Assembly: GCA_027627685.1 (NCBI GenBank)
Contig: CP091241.1
Span: forward strand, 2,295,191 to 2,359,190
Source: Hyphomonadaceae bacterium ML37
Lineage (GTDB): Bacteria; Pseudomonadota; Alphaproteobacteria; Caulobacterales; Maricaulaceae
DNA: 64,000 nucleotides
Direction of reading: 5' to 3'
Shown here: piece by piece, positions 16,738-26,611 of the stretch
Layout: each line of letters begins with the position of its first letter
Position numbering within the stretch: position 1 is the first letter of the stretch
The notes under the pieces: model-generated
Databases searched by the model: none
Seen by the model: only the letters and a program-made list of their open reading frames with translations
What the model was told of the DNA's origin: nothing
Translations under genes and position numbers: made by a program

Positions 16738-17651
16738 GATGTCTCCCCCACGCGCCGGACCTCCCATTCGAGCTCCACGCCGAACTGCGCCTTCACCTCG
16801 GCCCGCACGGTCTCGCCCAGCGTTTCGAGATCGCCAGCCGTGGCCGCGTCCTCATTGATCAGGAAATTGCAGTGCTGCGGCGAAAACATCGCTCCGCCAA
16901 GACGCCGCCCGCGCCAGCCCGCTGCATCGATGAGTTGCCAGGCCGAGCGTCCGCCCGACTGGGCCGGGTCGGGATTCTTGAACGTGGAGCCGGAGGTTTT
17001 TTCCCGGATCGGCTGCGTGCTCTCGCGCCGGGCCGTGATGGCGTCCATGCGCTGCGTAATCGCGGCGGGATCATCGGCGCGGCCTTCAAACACGGCTTCG
17101 ACGAATATCCACTCATCCGGCGCGTCGCTGTGGCGATAGGCGTAGCCCAGCTCGTCATGCGGCGCGATCAGGCGGCGTCCGCGCCGGTCCAGCGCCACCG
17201 CCTCCACCAGCACATCGCGGGTCTCGCGCTCATAGCATCCGGCATTCATGCGCAGCGCGCCGCCAATCGTGCCGGGCACGCCGACGAAAAATTCCAGCCC
17301 CGCAATGCCCGCCTTGGCCGCCGCTTTCGCCACCGACTTGTCCAGCGCCGCCGCCCCGGCGCGCAGGCGCAGCCCGTCGGCTGTGATCTGCCCGAAGGCC
17401 GGAGTCAGGCGCACCGTGACGCCCGGCAAGCCGCCATCACGCACCAGCGTGTTGGACCCGGCGCCCAGCACCTGGACGGGAATGTCGCGCGGCGTCTCGG
17501 CCAGGAAGCGGGCGAGATCCGCCTCGTCAGCAGGCAGGAACAATACCTCCGCCGGTCCGCCCACGCGCAGCCAGGTGATATCGGCCAGCGGCGCGCCTTC
17601 GATCAGCTTGCCGCGCACGGGCGGGAGGCGGGAGAGGAGCTGCGCCATCAC
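16734..17651 (-). CDS. murB: UDP-N-acetylenolpyruvoylglucosamine reductase
   Basis: The 305-residue FAD enzyme reduces the enolpyruvyl group to give UDP-MurNAc. Its FAD-binding segments are [15 protein letters not shown] and [14 protein letters not shown]. The substrate-site region is [29 protein letters not shown] carries the proton-donor Ser of the type I enzyme. The start overlaps the murC stop as ATGA and the stop overlaps the ddl start the same way. Confidence 0.97.
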
Positions 17652-19057
17652 CCCTCCGCCCCCAACCGTTCAGGCAGCTCCGCCGCCCAGGCGGTGATAT
17701 CGCCGGCGCCCAGGCACACCACCACATCGCCCGGCGCGATACGGGGTTTGAGATCGGCGGCCAGCGTCTCGCGGGTCGTGGCCGACGCGTCGCGGTGGGA
17801 GTGGCGTTGCAGGCCGGCCACCAGGCTGTCCTGATCGGCGCCCTCGATGGGGGTTTCACCGGCGGTGTAGACCGGCGTCACCAGCACGGCGTCGGCGTCG
17901 TTGAAGCAGGTGCAGAAGTCCTCAAACAGATCATTGAGGCGGGTATAGCGGTGGGGCTGGACCACGGCGATCACGCGGCCCTCCCCGGCGCGCTGGCGCG
18001 CGGCTTTGAGGACGGCGGCGATCTCCACCGGGTGGTGGCCGTAATCATCGATCACCGCCACGCCGCCGGCCTCGCCCACCAGGGTGAAGCGCCGCTTCAC
18101 GCCGGCAAACCCGGCCAGACCCTGACGCGCCTCGTCCTCCTGCCCGCCCAGCGCCTGCACCACGGCGAGAGCGGCGGCGGCGTTGAGCACATTGTGTTCG
18201 CCCATCATGGGCAGGCTGAGGCCCGCCCAGACCGACGGCTCGGCGCCGCGCGCCTGGAAGCGCAGATCAAAGCGGGCGCCGGCGGCGTCGCCTGAATGAT
18301 TGACAATGCGCACATCGGCCTGGGGCGAAAATCCATAGGTGATGACGCGCCGGTCCTCGATACGCGCGGCCAGGGCCTGCACCTCGGGATGATCCACGCA
18401 CAGCACCGCGAAACCGTAGAAGGGCAGGTTCTCGACGAATTGATGGAAGGCTTCGCGCAGGGCGTCGAAATCGCCGTAATGCTCCATGTGTTCGGGATCG
18501 ATATTGGTGATGATCCCCACCGTGCCGCGCAGTTTCAGGAAGGAGCCGTCGCTCTCGTCAGCCTCCACCACCATCCACTCGCCTTCGCCCATCTTGGCGT
18601 TGGAGCCATAGGCCGAGATTATGCCGCCATTGATCACGGTGGGATCAAACCCGGCCGCATCCATCAGCGCCGCCACCAGCGAGGTGGTGGTGGTCTTGCC
18701 ATGGGTGCCGGCCACGGCGACGCATTGTTTGAGGCGCATCAGCTCGGCGAGCATTTCGGCGCGGCGCACCACCGGGATGCGCCCGGCGCGGGCCGCGACC
18801 AACTCGGGATTGTCCCGGCGCACGGCGCTGGACACCACCAGCGCCCCGGCGCCGGCGACGTTCTCGCCATCGTGGCCGATATGAATGACCGCGCCCTTCT
18901 TGCGCAGGCGCTGCACATTGGCGCTGTCTGAAATGTCCGACCCGGTGACCTGATAGCCCAGATTGAGCATCACCTCGGCGATGCCGCTCATCCCGATCCC
19001 GCCAATCCCGACAAAATGGACAGGCGACGCGGCGGCGGCGAGGTCTCTGGGGGGCAT
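17648..19057 (-). CDS. murC: UDP-N-acetylmuramate-L-alanine ligase
   Basis: The 469-residue enzyme adds the first amino acid of the stem peptide. The start is ATG 19057 (MPPRDL), seven bases after the murG stop. A Rossmann-like N-terminal domain has [15 protein letters not shown] (14-28). The P-loop is GTHGKTTTT (117-125). [10 protein letters not shown] and the MEHYGD segment provide Mg and substrate contacts, and the C-terminal [10 protein letters not shown] motif is intact. It serves as an internal comparison for the P-loop-less murD-position gene. Confidence 0.97.
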
Positions 19058-19064
19058 GCTGGGC

Positions 19065-20153
19065 TTACTCCGCGGCGCGTTCGATGAGATCGGCCAGCGC
19101 CTCATGCGCCTGGGGCCGGCCGGCGGCGCGGGCCGCAGCGGCGCGCGCGGCGAGAGCTTCGCCGTCCGCCAGCAGCGATTCAAGCCGCTGTGACAGGCTG
19201 TCTGCCGTGAAGTCCGCTTCGGCCATGGCGTCGGCGGCGCCGGCGCGCACCAGGCCTTCAGCGTTCGCCCTCTGGTGATCGTCCATGGCGATGGCCAGCG
19301 GGACCAGAATGGAGGGGCGCCCGATGGCGGCAAGCTCTGACACCGAAGACGCGCCCGCCCGCGAAATCACCAGGTGGGCCGCCGCATAGCGCGCACCCAT
19401 ATCGTCAAAGAAGGGAGAGAGCTCGGCGCGTACGCCCGCTGTTTCATAAACCGAACGCGCCGCGTCCAGGCTTTCGTCGCGGGTCTGCTGCACCACCACC
19501 AGCCGGGCGCGAAGCGCCGCCGGCAGACGCGCGATGGCGGCGGGCACCGTCTCGGACAGGATGCGCGCACCCAGACTGCCGCCCAGCACCAGAAGCCGGA
19601 TCTCGCCATTGTCTGAAGGCGGTGCATAGGGCGTGTCGCGCGCGACCAGCACGGCGGCGCGCACCGGATTGCCGGTGACCGCGTGGCGCGCCTTGCGCGG
19701 CAGGCGGTCGAGGCGGTCAAAGCCCGATGCGACTGTGTGGGCGGATCCAGCGAACAGCCGGTTCACCCGCCCCAGCACCGCGTTCTGCTCATGGATCACG
19801 AAAGGCAGCGCAGAGATGCGCGCCGAGGCCAGCAAGGCGAAAGCCGGATAACCGCCAAATCCGGCGGCCACATCCGGCCCGAACGCTTTCACGATCGCCC
19901 GCGTGGCGCGAAGACCCGCCGCCAGGTCCGCCAGCGCGCCGGGCAGGCGGCGCGGATTGGACTGGAACGGGCTGGCGGCGCGGATCACGCTCACCCCCTC
20001 GCCGGGAAAGCCTTCGGTGTGGCGCGCGCCGCGCGCGTCTGTGACCAGGCGCACCCGCCAGCCCCGCGCGATCAGGGTCTCTGCTGCCGCCCGCGCCGGG
20101 AAGATGTGCCCGCCCGTGCCGCCCGCGGCCATGATGAGGCGCTTGCCGGTCAT
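19065..20153 (-). CDS. murG: Lipid II synthase (MurG glycosyltransferase)
   Basis: The 362-residue GT-B enzyme adds GlcNAc to lipid I on the cytoplasmic face. The first glycine loop is [12 protein letters not shown] (residues 9-20). Other motifs are [19 protein letters not shown], the third glycine loop LGGSLGAR, and the donor-site [23 protein letters not shown]. It overlaps the ftsW stop as ATGA. Confidence 0.97.
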
Positions 20154-21277
20154 GCCGGCGCGCCCACCAGGCGCTGGCGCGTGGGCTGATAGGCGCCGGG
20201 CCGGTGGCGCGTCAGCGCCAGCATCAGCCCGGCCGAGAAGGCCAGCGCCAGCATGGACGAGCCGCCATAGGACAGGAAAGGCAAGGTCATGCCGGTGGAG
20301 GGCGCCAGATCGAGATTGACCGCGATATTGACCAGCGCCTGCAGCGCGAACAGCAGGGCCAGCCCCGCCGTCGCCAGCCGGCCGAACGGATCATTGAGCT
20401 GCATGGCCAGGGTCCAGGCGCGCAGGAACAGGAGCGCGTAAAGGGCGATAATCAGCAACATGGCCAGCGCGCCGAACTCCTCGCCCGCCACTGCGAAAAT
20501 ATAGTCATTATGGGCTTCTGGCAGCACGTGCTTGATGCGCCCCTCGCCAGGCCCGACGCCCCACAGCCCGCCACTGCCGATAGCGTCCAGGGCGATGTCG
20601 GTCTGGTTACGCTGGCCGCCGCCGGACAGGAATGTCGCGACGCGGGTCTGGATATACGGCACGAAATTCACCGCCGCCGCCGCACCCGCCGCCATCCCTG
20701 CGCCCAGCCCGATGGTCCAGCGCCAGGACAATCCGCCAATCCACAGCATGGCAGCGAAAATCAGCGTGATCAGCGCGGTCTGGCCAATATCCGGCTGCAG
20801 TCTCAAAAGCACGGCCGCCACGCCGTAAATCCCCAGCGCCAGCAGCCGCCCGGGTGCAGGCGCCCCGCGATCTTCCTCGGTGAACAGCCAGGCGATGAAC
20901 ACGATGAAGGCCGGCTTGAAGACCTCGCTGGGCTGCAGCGAGAAGCCCGGCAGATGCAGCCAGCGTGTGGAGCCGTTGATGGTCTGGCCTACCGCGAGGA
21001 CCAGGACCAGCAAAACCAGCGATCCCAGCAGCGCCAGACCCGACATCCGCCGCACGCCGGTCAGCGAGAAGGCCGCGGCGGTCATCATGATGACCACGCC
21101 CGCGGCCATAAACATGACCTGACGGCGCAGATAGAAGAAGGGATCAGCGGCGCTGGACACCGCCGGGCTGGCGGCGAAGGCGAGCATGAACCCCATGCCC
21201 AGAAGGCACAGGATCACCCCCAGAAGCGGCTTGTCGATCTCGCGCAGGACCCGTGAATACTGCCGTGTCAGGCTCAT
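20150..21277 (-). CDS. ftsW: SEDS peptidoglycan glycosyltransferase FtsW
   Basis: The 375-residue polytopic protein has about ten predicted membrane segments. The start is ATG 21277 (MSLTRQYSR), overlapping the stop of the murD-position gene as ATGA. SEDS signatures present include GSTRWLHLPGFSLQPSEVFKPAF and the extracytoplasmic GGLWGVGPGEGRIKHVLPEAHNDYIFAV loop. SFLSYGG-type residues (PFLSYGGSSML) lie near the C-terminus. It polymerises septal glycan with its partner FtsI, encoded in the same operon. Confidence 0.96.
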   Translation of the reverse strand: MSLTRQYSRVLREIDKPLLGVILCLLGMGFMLAFAASPAVSSAADPFFYLRRQVMFMAAGVVIMMTAAAFSLTGVRRMSGLALLGSLVLLVLVLAVGQTINGSTRWLHLPGFSLQPSEVFKPAFIVFIAWLFTEEDRGAPAPGRLLALGIYGVAAVLLRLQPDIGQTALITLIFAAMLWIGGLSWRWTIGLGAGMAAGAAAAVNFVPYIQTRVATFLSGGGQRNQTDIALDAIGSGGLWGVGPGEGRIKHVLPEAHNDYIFAVAGEEFGALAMLLIIALYALLFLRAWTLAMQLNDPFGRLATAGLALLFALQALVNIAVNLDLAPSTGMTLPFLSYGGSSMLALAFSAGLMLALTRHRPGAYQPTRQRLVGAPA

Positions 21278-22623
21278 GCCGCGCGCCCCTTCGCGATCAA
21301 TCGCGTCAGTGTGTCCAGCGCAGCCCTGAAGGTCTGGCTGCGCGCCAGTCTCTCCTCTGGACCGCACCGGGTTGACGGAGCGTATAGGATGCGCGCGTCG
21401 GCGCCGGTGAGCGCAGCGGCGTGCAGCGCGCGCGCCAGCGCATCATCCAGACTGTCCGCCTGACGGCAGGCGATCCGCGGCGCCAGACGCCGCGCCGCGC
21501 GCGCATCGGGGCCGGACAGGATCACGCCCTTCAAGGCGTGGGGCAAGGTTTCGGGCAGGTCGGCCGCGTCCAGGCCCGCGTGGGCGATCCACCATATCGG
21601 CGCGGCGCCGGTGAAGCCGGTCAGCGCCGTCTTGGGGTCTTGTGCAGCGCCATAATCAAACACCCGCACGCGGCCCAGGCTCGTCGCCGCGATGCGCCAG
21701 CCCTGCGCGCCGGGAAAGAAGGCCATCGCTGCTTCCAGCGCATCGGGCTCGCCGCCGAGCGCCAGCGCGAGGGCCCCCGCGCCTGCGATCAGTCCTGGCG
21801 CCAGATCGGCCAGACCCGGCCCCGCCGCCTGAAGCGGGCGGCGCGGCGCGCCGGGCCGCGCATCATGCAGGCGCCCGCCCAACAGATAGACACCGTCGCC
21901 CAGCACCATCCGGCCTGAACACGCGATCAGCCGCGCGCGATCCACTCCGCCCCGGCGCAGGGCGGCCAGACGCGCGCCTGCGTCAGGCGCGTCCATGTCC
22001 AGCAGGACCGGGCCGGAGACGCGCTGGGCGAGGGCTTCGAGTTCGGCGGCGCTGATCGTCGCGCCCGCCTTCACCAGCAAGGCGTGAGCGCGGAGGTCTG
22101 GCGCGGCGGCGCACTCGGCGGCGCTGGCGGCGATGAGGGTGATGGACCCGGCGCGCAGCGGCGGCGCGTCGAACAGCGCGGTCCCTGCCCCGCCCCGGCG
22201 CACATCCAGCCCGCATCGGGCCAGGCAGGCTTCAGCCAGCTCCGCCGCTGCGGCCGCCTCATCGCCGCCCAGGACCAGCGCGGCGCGGGCGCCCCTGGCG
22301 CTTTTCAGGGCGCAGCCGAACAATCCCAATTCGGTGAGGACCGGCGTGCCGGTGACCCGGGCCAGCGCCACGGGACCCTTGTCCGGGCCATCGAGGCGGC
22401 TGACATCATCGATCACCAGCGCGGCCAGATCGCCCCAGTCGCGTGTGGACGGATCCTCGATCACCACCCCGGCGCCGCCAGCCGCCGCGCGCACGTCCGC
22501 GTCATCATCCCAGCCCGAGACCGCCATACCGCCGGATGCGAGCGCGCGCGCCATGGCGCGCCCGCGCAAGCCCAGGCCGATCACGGCGGCCCGGCCCTCG
22601 GCGCTGGCGCGAACGGGGATCAT
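21274..22623 (-). CDS. MurD-like protein in the murD position, lacking the ATP-binding P-loop
   Basis: The 449-residue protein lies between mraY and ftsW, where murD (UDP-MurNAc-L-Ala:D-Glu ligase) belongs. The N-terminus matches MurD domain 1 (AVIGLGLRGRAMARALASGG, then WDDD). The stretch TGTPVLTELGLFG (91-103) matches the segment that precedes the P-loop, and the C-terminus (ILYAPSTRCGPEERLARSQTF, 412-432) aligns with the MurD ending. However, where GTNGKSTT should stand the sequence is LVLGGDEAAAAA (116-127). The SPGIP motif, the HNxxN motif and the catalytic Glu/His/Lys blocks are also missing. The frame is open and overlaps both reading neighbours normally (ATGA with ftsW). MurC, MurE and MurF in the same operon keep their P-loops. 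It is either a catalytically dead scaffold or a protein with a new role; a working MurD must be encoded elsewhere (inference). Confidence 0.75.
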   Translation of the reverse strand: MIPVRASAEGRAAVIGLGLRGRAMARALASGGMAVSGWDDDADVRAAAGGAGVVIEDPSTRDWGDLAALVIDDVSRLDGPDKGPVALARVTGTPVLTELGLFGCALKSARGARAALVLGGDEAAAAAELAEACLARCGLDVRRGGAGTALFDAPPLRAGSITLIAASAAECAAAPDLRAHALLVKAGATISAAELEALAQRVSGPVLLDMDAPDAGARLAALRRGGVDRARLIACSGRMVLGDGVYLLGGRLHDARPGAPRRPLQAAGPGLADLAPGLIAGAGALALALGGEPDALEAAMAFFPGAQGWRIAATSLGRVRVFDYGAAQDPKTALTGFTGAAPIWWIAHAGLDAADLPETLPHALKGVILSGPDARAARRLAPRIACRQADSLDDALARALHAAALTGADARILYAPSTRCGPEERLARSQTFRAALDTLTRLIAKGRAA

Positions 22624-22636
22624 GACGCCTCCTTGG

Positions 22637-23737
22637 CTAGCGCAACTTCAGCGTGGACAGACCGATCAGGGCCAGGACGAAGGCGATGATCCAGAACCGC
22701 ACCACGATGGTGGACTCCGCCCAGCCCAGCTTTTCAAAATGGTGGTGGATGGGCGCCATGCGGAAGACGCGCTTGCCGGTCAGCTTGAAGCTGGCCACCT
22801 GCACCATCACCGACACGGCTTCCAGCACGAACAGGCCGCCAATAATGACGAGCACGATCTCGTGCTTGACCGCCACGGCGATGGCCCCGATCGCGCCGCC
22901 CAGCGATAGCGATCCGGTGTCGCCCATGAACACCATGGCCGGGGGCGCGTTGTACCAGAGAAAGCCCAGCCCGGCGCCGATCATGGCCCCGCAGATCACG
23001 GCGAGCTCGCCCGTGCCGGGGGTGAAGTTCAGGAACAGATAGTTGGAATAGACCGAGGACCCGACCATGTAGGCGATCACGCCGAACGCGCCCGCTGCGA
23101 TCATCACCGGCACGATGGCCAGCCCGTCGAGACCGTCGGTGAGGTTGACCGCATTGGAGGCGCCGACAATCACCACCACGCCGAAGGCGAAGAACACCAC
23201 CCCCAGCGGGATCAGCACGTCCTTGAAGAAGGGTACGGCCACCGAGGTGGAGAAATCGTCCGGCGTGTTGGGCGCGCCATCGAGCAATTGCACCATCCAG
23301 AACACTGCGATCAGCGCCACCACGCCCTGAAGCGCCAGCTTGCCCTTGCCCGAAAGGCCGTGATGGGAGCGCTTGGTCACCTTGCGCCAGTCATCAAGAA
23401 AGCCGATCGCGCCATAGCCGGCGGTCACGAACATCACCACCCACAGATAGGCGTTGGACAGATCGCCCCAGAGCAGCGTGCCCGTCACGATGCCGGTCAG
23501 GATGATGAACCCGCCCATGGTGGGCGTGCCGGCCTTGGTCAGCACATGGCTTTCAGGGCCGTCATCGCGGATGGGCTGGGAGCCCTGCTTTCTCAGCCAG
23601 CCGATGAAGGGCATGCCCACCACCAGCGCCACGACGAAGGCCGTCATCAGCGCCGCGCCGGTGCGGAAGGTGAGGTAGTTGAGGACGTTGAACAGGGTGA
23701 ATTGTTCGGCGAGCGGGGACAGCAACAGGTACAGCAT
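22637..23737 (-). CDS. mraY: Phospho-MurNAc-pentapeptide transferase
   Basis: The 366-residue membrane enzyme has ten predicted helices and makes lipid I from UDP-MurNAc-pentapeptide and undecaprenyl phosphate. Family motifs are PTMGG (residues 72-76), the Asp pair in [19 protein letters not shown] with a Mg ligand Asp, VFMGDTGSL, and the [10 protein letters not shown] loop. It lies seven bases after murF and thirteen before the MurD-like gene. Confidence 0.97.
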
Positions 23738-23744
23738 GGGGCGT

Positions 23745-25154
23745 TCAGGCCTGTGTTGGGGCGCCGGCGCGCGCGGTTTTCAGGGCGGCGGCGATCCTGT
23801 GAACGCCGGAGGCATTGGAGCCTTTGATCAGCACGACATCCCCCTCGCGCGCCAGTGCGTCCAGCTGTTCAATGCCAGCGCTCCAGTCAGCAGCGTGAAC
23901 CGCTTCGACCCGAGAGGGCAACGCCTCCAAAAGCGCGCCCATGCCTTTGCCGACGCCGATCACGGTGCTGACGCCCGCCTCGGCCAGTGGTTCGGCGAGC
24001 GCGGCATGCAGCGCAGGCGCATCCGGGCCCAATTCGAGCATTTCGCCCAGCACCGCGATGCGGCGCGCACCCGCGGACGGGGTGCGCGAAGACAGGCTGG
24101 CGAACGCCGCGCGCATGGAGGCGGGGTTGGCGTTATAGCTGTCATCAATCAGCGTCAGGGCGCGCCCGTCGGCGAGCTTGACGTCAAAGCGCGCGCCCCG
24201 GCCCGCCTGCGGCGTCAGCTGCGCCAGCACATCCAGCGTGAACTCCGGGGCGATGCCGACCGCGAACGCCGCGGCCGCCACGCCCGCCGCATTCACCGCC
24301 TGATGGGCGCCGGGCTGGTTGAGGCGGAAGGGCAGGACCTTGCCCGCCACGTCCATCTCGCCCGATCCGCCCTCGCCGTCGGGCGTGTAATGGACCACCC
24401 GCACCGCCGCGCCGCGCGCCATGCCGAAATCGAGCAGGAAGGCGGCGCGGGATGTGCGCGCCGCTGCCGCCAGCCGGGCGGCATGCTCGCCGTCAGCCGG
24501 GATCACCGTCACGCCTTCAACTTCCAGCCCGGTGAAGATCTCCGCCTTCGCGTCAGCAATCGCGTCCATCGAGCCGAGATTTTCCAGATGCGCCGGCGCA
24601 ATGGCGGTGATCAGCGCCACATAGGGGCGCACCTGCGCCGACAGCGCCGCAATCTCGCCGGCATGGTTCATGCCCATCTCGAAAACGGCGGCCTGCGTGG
24701 CCTGCGGCATGCGCGCCAGGGTCAGCGGCACGCCCCAGTGATTATTATAGCTCGCCACGCTCCAGTGGGCCGGACCGGCGGCGCGCAGCACGGCGGCCAG
24801 CGCCTCTTTCACACTGGTCTTGCCCACCGAGCCTGTGACCCCGATGCGCAACGCGCCCGAGCGCAGGCGCGCGCCCTGACCCAGCGCCTGCAGAGCCGCC
24901 AGCGTGTCATCGACCACCAGGCGCGGACCGTCACAGCAATCGGCGCGCGAGACGAGGACCGCACTGGCGCCCTTGTCCAGGGCGCCTTGCGCAAACTCAT
25001 GCCCGTCGCGGGCGTCTTGCAGCGCCACGAACAGATCGCCGGGCGCCAGCGTGCGGGTGTCGATGGACACGCCGGTGGCGGTCCAGCCCCCATCGCTCAG
25101 GCGCCCGCCTGTGGCCAGGGCGGCGTCAGCAGCGGTCCACAGCGGCGCGGTCAT
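23745..25154 (-). CDS. murF: UDP-MurNAc-tripeptide-D-Ala-D-Ala ligase
   Basis: The 469-residue Mur ligase adds the D-Ala-D-Ala dipeptide made by Ddl. The P-loop is [13 protein letters not shown] (105-117). Other motifs are the [11 protein letters not shown] substrate segment, [21 protein letters not shown], the [11 protein letters not shown] motif in the C-terminal domain, and GEMLELG. It overlaps the murE stop as ATGA. Confidence 0.97.
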
Positions 25155-26611
25155 GAGGGGCTCTCCAGCTCTTGCAGCAGGCGCGTGACGATGGCCGGCT
25201 CGTCAAACGGAATGATGCGGCCGCCGACAATCTGTCCAGTCTCGTGCCCCTTGCCCGCGATCAGCAGCGTGTCGCCAGCCTCCAGCATGGCGATCCCGGC
25301 GCGGATCGCGCTCTCACGGTCGCCGATCTCCTGCGCGCCCGGACAGGCCGACAGGATCGCCGCGCGGATCGCCGCCGGCTCTTCGCTGCGCGGATTATCG
25401 TCGGTGACGATGCACACATCGGCCTGCTGCGCCGCCACGGCGCCCATCTTGGCGCGCTTGGAGGGATCGCGGTCGCCGCCTGCGCCAAACACCAGAATGA
25501 TGCGCCCGCGCGTATGCGGCCGCGCCGCGCGCAAGAGCTTGTCGAGGCCGTCGGGCGTGTGGGCGTAATCGAGCAGGATCGGCGCGCCGTCTCGGGTGGC
25601 GCCCGCCTGTTGCAGCCGCCCGGCCACACCGGACAGGTTCTCCAGCGCGGCGAAGGCTGCGCCGGCGTCCACCCCGGATGCAATCGCCATCACCGCTGCG
25701 CCCAGCGCATTGGCGGTCTGGAACTCGCCGATCAGCGGCAACTCGATTACGTCCTCCTCGCCCAGCCAGGCAAAGCGCACGAGCTGGCTGGCCGGGCGCG
25801 GCGTGATTTCACGCACCGCCAGATCCCGGCCGCGCCAGCCCAGCGTCATGACCTCCAGCCCGGCGGCCAGCGCCGTCTGTTCGACCCGCGCCGACCAGTC
25901 TGAATCCATGTTAATCACCGCCTGCCCGCCAGACGGCGTCAGCGCAGTGAAGAGCCGCATCTTGGCGGCGAAATAGTCTTCAAAGTCCGGGTGATAATCG
26001 AGATGGTCCTGGGTCAGGTTCGTAAACGCGCTGACCGATACCCGTACGCCATCCATGCGCCGCTGCTTGAGCCCGTGCGACGACGCCTCCATGGCCAGAT
26101 GCGTCACCCCCTCGCCCGCCAGCGCGTCCAGCGCGGCGTGCAGCGCGATGGCGTCAGGCGTGGTGTAGCCCACCTCCGTGCGCCCGGCCTCGCGCGTCAC
26201 GCCCAGCGTGCCCAGCGCCGCCGCGCTGATGCCCGCCGACGCCCAGATCTGCCGCAGAAACTCCACCGTGGAGCTTTTGCCATTGGTGCCGGTCACGGCA
26301 GAGATGTGTTCAGGCTGGCGCGGATAGAAGTTCGCCGCGATCGCCGCCAGCGCCCCTGCGGGATCATCGGTCTCGATCACCGGGACCGGCGCGGATGTTC
26401 CGCGCGGCGCGAGCACACAGGCGGCGCCGTTCTCGACAGCAGCGTTGATGAACTGGCGCCCGTCAACGCGCACGCCGGGCAGCGCCGCGAACAGATCGCC
26501 GGACGACACCCTGCGGCTGTCCAAGGCGAGGCCGCTGATCCTCAGATCCTGCGCGCCGTGCGGCGCGGCGAGGCCTTCGGGCAGGAGATCGGCGAGCGCG
26601 CGGGTCATCAT
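25151..26611 (-). CDS. murE: UDP-MurNAc-L-Ala-D-Glu:meso-diaminopimelate ligase
   Basis: The 486-residue ligase adds the third stem residue. The P-loop is TGTNGKSST (107-115). The substrate loop TTPDA and EASSHGL are present, as is the NLTQDHLDYH block. The DDNPRSEEP motif in domain 3 is the signature of the enzyme form that takes meso-diaminopimelate rather than lysine, so the wall is predicted to be DAP-type. It overlaps the ftsI stop as ATGA. Confidence 0.97.
   Translation of the reverse strand: MMTRALADLLPEGLAAPHGAQDLRISGLALDSRRVSSGDLFAALPGVRVDGRQFINAAVENGAACVLAPRGTSAPVPVIETDDPAGALAAIAANFYPRQPEHISAVTGTNGKSSTVEFLRQIWASAGISAAALGTLGVTREAGRTEVGYTTPDAIALHAALDALAGEGVTHLAMEASSHGLKQRRMDGVRVSVSAFTNLTQDHLDYHPDFEDYFAAKMRLFTALTPSGGQAVINMDSDWSARVEQTALAAGLEVMTLGWRGRDLAVREITPRPASQLVRFAWLGEEDVIELPLIGEFQTANALGAAVMAIASGVDAGAAFAALENLSGVAGRLQQAGATRDGAPILLDYAHTPDGLDKLLRAARPHTRGRIILVFGAGGDRDPSKRAKMGAVAAQQADVCIVTDDNPRSEEPAAIRAAILSACPGAQEIGDRESAIRAGIAMLEAGDTLLIAGKGHETGQIVGGRIIPFDEPAIVTRLLQELESPS

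Follow-up and report, generated by a model that had tools for sequence, protein, structure and literature searches.

In the MurD2/MurL system of Xanthomonas oryzae, MurD2 adds L-Glu and MurL then performs an ATP-dependent epimerisation, as stated in the accessible portions of two papers (PMC8788868, PMC5808125); the alphaproteobacteria listed for this route in the accessible portion of the first are Devosia, Pelagibacterium and Parvularcula, and the genus discussed below is not in that list. For MurD itself, the available part of another paper, citing work on Thermotoga maritima, reports binding to MurG and MreB, and presents MurG as a proposed scaffold for the Mur ligases (PMC6420597). In plastids, according to the available excerpt of a further source, a Mur ligase homologue, PAP11, is found within another complex (PMC12681378). 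Here we describe, in the division and cell wall (dcw) cluster of Hyphomonadaceae bacterium ML37, a gene that occupies the murD slot between mraY and ftsW and encodes a full-length MurD homologue in which, judging from the sequence, the motifs essential for catalysis have been lost but which is nevertheless maintained by purifying selection. The stretch of DNA analysed (hereafter, the window) is 64,000 nucleotides long (contig CP091241.1, positions 2,295,191 to 2,359,190), and the genome to which it belongs (G000) is one contig of 3,038,461 bases. The slot gene and the segments of its product that are central to the argument are:

21274 to 22623, minus strand: the murD-slot gene, an open frame with an ATG start that encodes a P-loop-less, MurD-derived protein of 449 amino acids
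22402 to 22410, minus strand: residues 72-74 (DDV), aligned to the SPG motif of canonical MurD
22246 to 22269, minus strand: residues 119-126 (GGDEAAAA), aligned to the P-loop GTNGKSTT
21760 to 22293, minus strand: residues 111-288, the former ATPase (middle) domain, with limits that we set from the alignment

A preliminary description of this locus held that the frame is complete, is coupled to ftsW through an ATGA overlap and retains MurD-like ends, and that the P-loop is replaced by GGDEAAAAA, with the SPG motif, the HNxxN block and the catalytic residues of the central domain gone as well. All of this is borne out: the slot protein contains AVIGLGLRGRAMARAL, GGDEAAAAA and RLARSQTF, and the same losses are seen in each of the nine slot proteins compared, namely those from eight genomes of the genus and one from a contig (L007) of an Oceanicaulis sp. 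metagenome-assembled genome (MAG), which shows 78% identity and is the one record that supplies the genus name. When the nine were aligned with 13 canonical MurDs, not one was found to contain a complete SPG, GTNGKSTT, ELSSYQL, PDHxDRHG, YxxAK, HNxQN, NDSKATN or SPACASFDQF motif; what survives are scraps in single proteins, SKA in L102 and PAC in L101. The canonical MurDs keep all these motifs with small variations, and the P-loop reads GTNGKSTT or GSNGKSTT in 13 of 13. (The canonical set was chosen from fetched loci, 13 for the motif and residue counts and 14 in alignment A4; alignment A3 includes 17 of the 27 canonical MurD loci, with GKST in all 27, and the canonical MurD next to mraY was read for G202, a genome of a sister genus, as well as for L054 and L062, outside that set.) The slot proteins lack some twelve residues in the region of PDHxDRHG, and the glycine-rich loop of the N-terminal domain is altered, more so in the second subclade. 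Altogether, 43 of the 121 positions that are invariant among the 13 canonical MurDs differ in every slot protein, and the canonical-invariant residues kept in all nine number 15 of 33 in the N-terminal domain, 4 of 48 in the middle domain and 3 of 40 in the C-terminal domain. Fourteen residues, among them G237-R238 after S236 and P342, are invariant in the nine slot proteins and rare in canonical MurD.

Despite these replacements, the descent of the slot protein from MurD is readily traced. In a single-sequence comparison with the MurD model TIGR01087, the slot protein of the window scored only 11.6 bits (E 0.1), short of the curated cut-off of 211.95 bits; likewise, this single sequence had no match to any Pfam Mur domain and none to any other domain in Pfam or NCBIfam. 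Yet when the nine slot proteins were compared as a profile with 14 canonical MurDs using hhalign, the two aligned end to end over 439 columns with a probability of 100 and an E-value of 6.6e-53. The slot proteins are 425-453 amino acids long, compared to 462-475 for most canonical MurDs, and their predicted fold is the three-domain Mur ligase fold of canonical MurD, a confident prediction from the slot sequences alone. Derivation from the ectopic MurD encoded elsewhere in the same genomes (see below) was considered and rejected, given the E-value of 9.9e-6 to the ectopic profile compared with 6.6e-53 to canonical MurD. The preliminary description had named a base-calling error and a displaced but intact P-loop as findings that would overturn its claim; both are very unlikely because the same loss is seen in nine distinct records. 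Thus, the slot protein is a full-length MurD homologue in which, by sequence comparison, the motifs of the ATP, substrate and Glu sites are gone and for which an intact fold is predicted.

Estimates of the ratio of nonsynonymous to synonymous substitution rates (dN/dS) indicate that the slot gene is not drifting. In four close pairs, dN/dS was 0.13, 0.15, 0.14 and 0.25, with twice the log-likelihood difference from a ratio of 1 equal to 180, 159, 165 and 87, respectively; a fifth, more distant pair (the window and L104) gave 0.19 at a dS of 1.73, within the range of the four. These values come from a custom pairwise codon model (GY94-type, F3x4) rather than a standard program, and pairs with saturated dS were set aside (L100-L101 and L102-L103 among the slot genes, and two of ten canonical pairs). 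An excess of substitutions at third codon positions remains when the last 12 codons are removed (p 9e-21, 2e-16, 1e-17 and 3e-6). By domain, all four pairs show the same order of dN/dS, rising from the former ATPase domain (0.07-0.14) through the N-terminal domain (0.11-0.22) to the C-terminal domain (0.16-0.44). For reference, canonical MurD yielded 0.03-0.08 in eight pairs, the ectopic MurD 0.07-0.13 and MurL 0.08-0.11, and the pairs with unsaturated dS gave 0.04-0.11 for ftsW and 0.015-0.06 for mraY. Several observations temper the case for constraint: of the four pairs, three have sequences in common and hence are not independent; compared pair by pair, the slot gene exceeds ftsW and mraY in dN/dS by a factor of some 2-6; in one pair, codon-position bias is missing from the C-terminal domain (p 0.41); the middle and N-terminal domains are about equal in amino acid identity, so that the ordering of the domains is one of raw dN/dS values; and genus-wide, it is the N-terminal rather than the middle domain that keeps most of the canonical residues. 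Purifying selection thus does act on the slot gene, although less strongly than on the enzymes encoded next to it. With its catalytic residues lost and its sequence held by selection, the slot protein is, at the level of sequence, a pseudoenzyme.

The prediction that a second MurD, or a route of the MurD2/MurL type, exists elsewhere in the genome was also correct. The window genome encodes an intact ectopic MurD-type ligase (C1:1195576-1196928; 267 bits to TIGR01087, cut-off 212) and a MurL homologue (C1:990216-991538; 250.9 bits, E 1.8e-74, over positions 10-440 of the 447 of NF041275, a model named for Xanthomonadales); MurI was not detected in this genome by a search that was positive in 10 of 14 control genomes. 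With an intact MurD at another locus, a MurL homologue and no detectable MurI, the step once assigned to the slot could proceed via L-Glu ligation followed by epimerisation. Both genes are present in all 11 genomes of the genus, over which these counts were made, with the L007 MAG standing outside them; the ectopic MurDs are 53-100% identical and each contains GTKGKST. Among 12 ectopic MurDs (11 from the genus and that of G202), Arg is found at the position of Escherichia coli K348 in 12 and Pro at that of A414 in 11, and of the Glu-site residues E197, R358, P433 and F435 of X. oryzae MurD2 (positions from the accessible portion of PMC8788868), the ectopic MurD of the window genome has E, R and P, with Gly in the fourth place. 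Two facts count against a firm assignment: the MurL homologues fall below the curated 700-bit cut-off of NF041275, and the residues support the L-Glu type of the ectopic MurD only partly, with Glu at the D182 position in 5 of 12.

Among 21 selected genomes, the best match to D-amino-acid aminotransferase (Dat) was at most 153.5 bits in all 12 genomes with MurL and 236-269 bits in eight of the nine other family genomes chosen, none over the 277-bit cut-off. All 7 tested genomes in which neither MurI nor MurL was detected carry a Dat-like gene scoring 236-269 bits, slightly below the curated cut-off. Of the 99 family genomes, some of them incomplete, 53 gave no MurI match; the loss of MurI as a mark of the genus was rejected, given that 41 of these 53 also lack MurL. 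MurL was first located in G034, where it sits next to the ectopic MurD (alignment A1 holds 11 of the 12 MurLs, with G138 left out, and alignment A5 holds 8 of the 11 ectopic MurDs of the genus). The ectopic MurD and MurL genes lie tail-to-tail in seven genomes of the genus; in the subclade of the window, they are 42-205 kb apart (G000, G173) or on separate contigs (G240, G138).

The same data bear on the notion that ligase activity persists in the slot protein through an ATP site of a non-canonical type, the ectopic MurD doing something else. Such a protein would be expected in the murD position and with the Mur ligase fold, as predicted here, but the Walker A motif, the lysine motif and a complete Glu-site motif are all missing from the nine slot proteins, roughly twelve residues near PDHxDRHG are deleted, every genome of the genus carries the ectopic GTKGKST-containing MurD along with MurL, and three genomes manage without the slot gene; we regard residual ligase activity as extremely improbable.

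The slot gene is embedded in the dcw cluster, the neighbouring elements of which are:

22628 to 22634, minus strand: AAGGAGG, the Shine-Dalgarno-like sequence of the slot gene, read directly from the sequence
21286 to 21291, minus strand: AAGGGG within the final codons of the slot gene, the probable ribosome-binding site of ftsW, also read directly
20150 to 21277, minus strand: ftsW, named by sequence reading
22637 to 23737, minus strand: mraY, adjoining the slot gene on its upstream side, named by sequence reading
23745 to 25154, minus strand: murF, with an intact P-loop GSVGKTS (TIGR01087 cross-match G000:C1:2319277-2320038)
25151 to 26611, minus strand: murE, with an intact P-loop GTNGKSS (TIGR01087 cross-match G000:C1:2320794-2321327)
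17648 to 19333, minus strand: the murC frame, with an intact P-loop GTHGKTT (TIGR01087 cross-match G000:C1:2313234-2314208)

The three P-loops agree with the preliminary description; the true start of murC is probably downstream of the listed one. The slot gene starts 13 bases past the mraY stop codon, with AAGGAGG in front, and its TGA overlaps the ATG of ftsW as ATGA; both this overlap and the order mraY-slot-ftsW are found in nine of nine carriers. MurL was found in 12 of the 99 sampled genomes of the family, namely G202 and every one of the 11 that belong to the window's genus; the dead MurD is in the slot of eight of the 11. The remaining three (G232, G252 and G259; loci L097, L098 and L099) have no slot gene: mraY and ftsW are separated by 40-53 bases, and ftsW is preceded by an AGGA-type ribosome-binding site. 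In a MraY+FtsW tree rooted on a single outgroup, G202, these three form one clade (support 100) that is sister to the remaining members of the genus (support 85), so what was lost may have been the dead gene or a still-intact one. The slot gene is, accordingly, dispensable in one clade. In 15 of 15 other sampled MurL-bearing alphaproteobacteria, read around mraY alone (6 of the 15 do not reach 90% completeness with contamination of 5% or less; G346, a partial match of 80 bits, was dropped before the count), there is no gene between mraY and ftsW. Taken with the three genomes of the genus, this means that the role of the slot protein is not general. Despite MurL and an ectopic MurD, the slot of G202 still holds an intact canonical MurD. 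These absences and this coexistence all weigh against the explanation favoured below; at the same time, the genomes look like a replacement series in which both enzymes are present (G202), the dead copy is kept, or the gene is gone. In G202, the canonical MurD lies between mraY and ftsW at L107 (G202:C1), and MurL, the ectopic MurD and a gene that reads as Mpl-like are consecutive on one strand at L053 (G202:C3); the genome yielded no MurI and no strong match to Dat.

This distribution invites the view that the slot gene is a decaying relic, its frame kept open by translational coupling to ftsW and the genes downstream, its own sequence of little matter, and clean removal the final stage, at which one clade has already arrived. 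The universal ATGA overlap, the purine-rich ftsW ribosome-binding site inside the slot codons, the clean junctions in all three gene-less genomes, a dN/dS above that of canonical MurD and the empty slot of the other MurL genomes all fit. A mere spacer, however, predicts a dN/dS of about 1 instead of 0.13-0.25, the codon-position signal survives removal of the final 12 codons, the middle domain is constrained about as much as MurD2 and MurL of the same genomes, and the fold is predicted with confidence. Pure coupling, the chief alternative, would thus account for the overlap and for the junctions but leaves the constraint unexplained, and we consider it unlikely.

The explanation that we favour, with moderate confidence, is that the slot protein is a pseudoenzyme, the original murD-slot MurD of the genus after loss of catalysis, retained for a non-chemical job. 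Under this scenario, takeover of the chemistry by MurD2/MurL would have freed the old MurD from catalysis, and it would have been retained for another task of Mur ligases, the binding, at the membrane, of partners such as MurG, MraY, MreB or other Mur ligases. The protein may then act as a docking or spacing subunit that is silent in catalysis and is translated along with its neighbours MraY and FtsW; the G232/G252/G259 clade would have lost the slot gene or never kept the dead version. That the former ATPase domain is constrained in spite of the lost active site fits a role of the fold or surface, not of the active site. More tentatively, we suggest that the dead MurD is a structural subunit of a membrane-proximal Mur/MraY/MurG/FtsW assembly, a selectable non-catalytic role uncovered by the MurD2/MurL takeover. 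Of what the preliminary description envisaged, the retention of a working pseudo-ligase is supported by purifying selection and the predicted fold, and tempered by the three genomes of the genus that do without it; a structural part in a Mur/MraY/FtsW assembly, or a regulatory one, may be the form that this role takes.

Conceivably, though on the unlikely side, the slot protein is instead a ligand-binding regulator, the N-terminal nucleotide-fold domain of which binds UDP-MurNAc species and tunes MurA, MurC, MurE, MraY or MurD2/MurL. That domain is by far the richest in retained canonical residues and weakly matches profiles and chains of the NAD-binding type. Its glycine-rich loop is changed, though, and SPG, which we take to be a UMP contact, is lost from all nine proteins, which, on that assumption, argues against UDP binding. 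A new activity or a partner outside cell-wall synthesis, with the gene in the operon by descent only, appears distinctly less probable: the fourteen newly invariant residues could reflect it, but gene order and the ftsW overlap are preserved in all carriers and neither Pfam nor NCBIfam reveals another domain.

Because Mur ligases are essential, it is difficult to establish whether they also serve a structural, non-catalytic purpose in the division and elongation machinery. In this genus, a natural split seems to have occurred, with the chemistry of MurD passed to MurD2/MurL and a dead MurD under selection in the operon, and with the close relatives that lack the gene as built-in controls. If this holds, it would be a natural separation of functions that gives a Mur ligase a selectable non-catalytic role. 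For annotation, the finding implies that the murD position does not always mean MurD. MurD2/MurL and pseudoenzymes are already known; we found no description in the open-access literature of a catalytically dead MurD maintained by selection in the dcw cluster, and this is the new element.

With canonical MurD, the slot protein shares the place between mraY and ftsW, a similar length, end-to-end profile homology and the predicted fold, but it lacks the catalytic and substrate motifs and scores far under the MurD cut-off. As in PAP11, going by the portion of that source available, a Mur ligase homologue would have a part in another complex; PAP11, however, represents a different Mur ligase and a different complex, whereas the slot protein remains in a cell-wall operon. 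In the assemblies with MurG and MreB, as far as the available text describes them, the docking of MurD is an ability that could outlast its catalysis; the Mur ligases there are active enzymes, and the slot protein is likened to them by analogy. With X. oryzae, as covered by the accessible parts of PMC8788868 and PMC5808125, the window genome shares an ectopic MurD with Arg at the K348 position, a MurL homologue and no detectable MurI. The difference from MurD2/MurL systems is that the slot, empty in the 15 other MurL-bearing alphaproteobacteria sampled, still holds a dead MurD in the window's genus.
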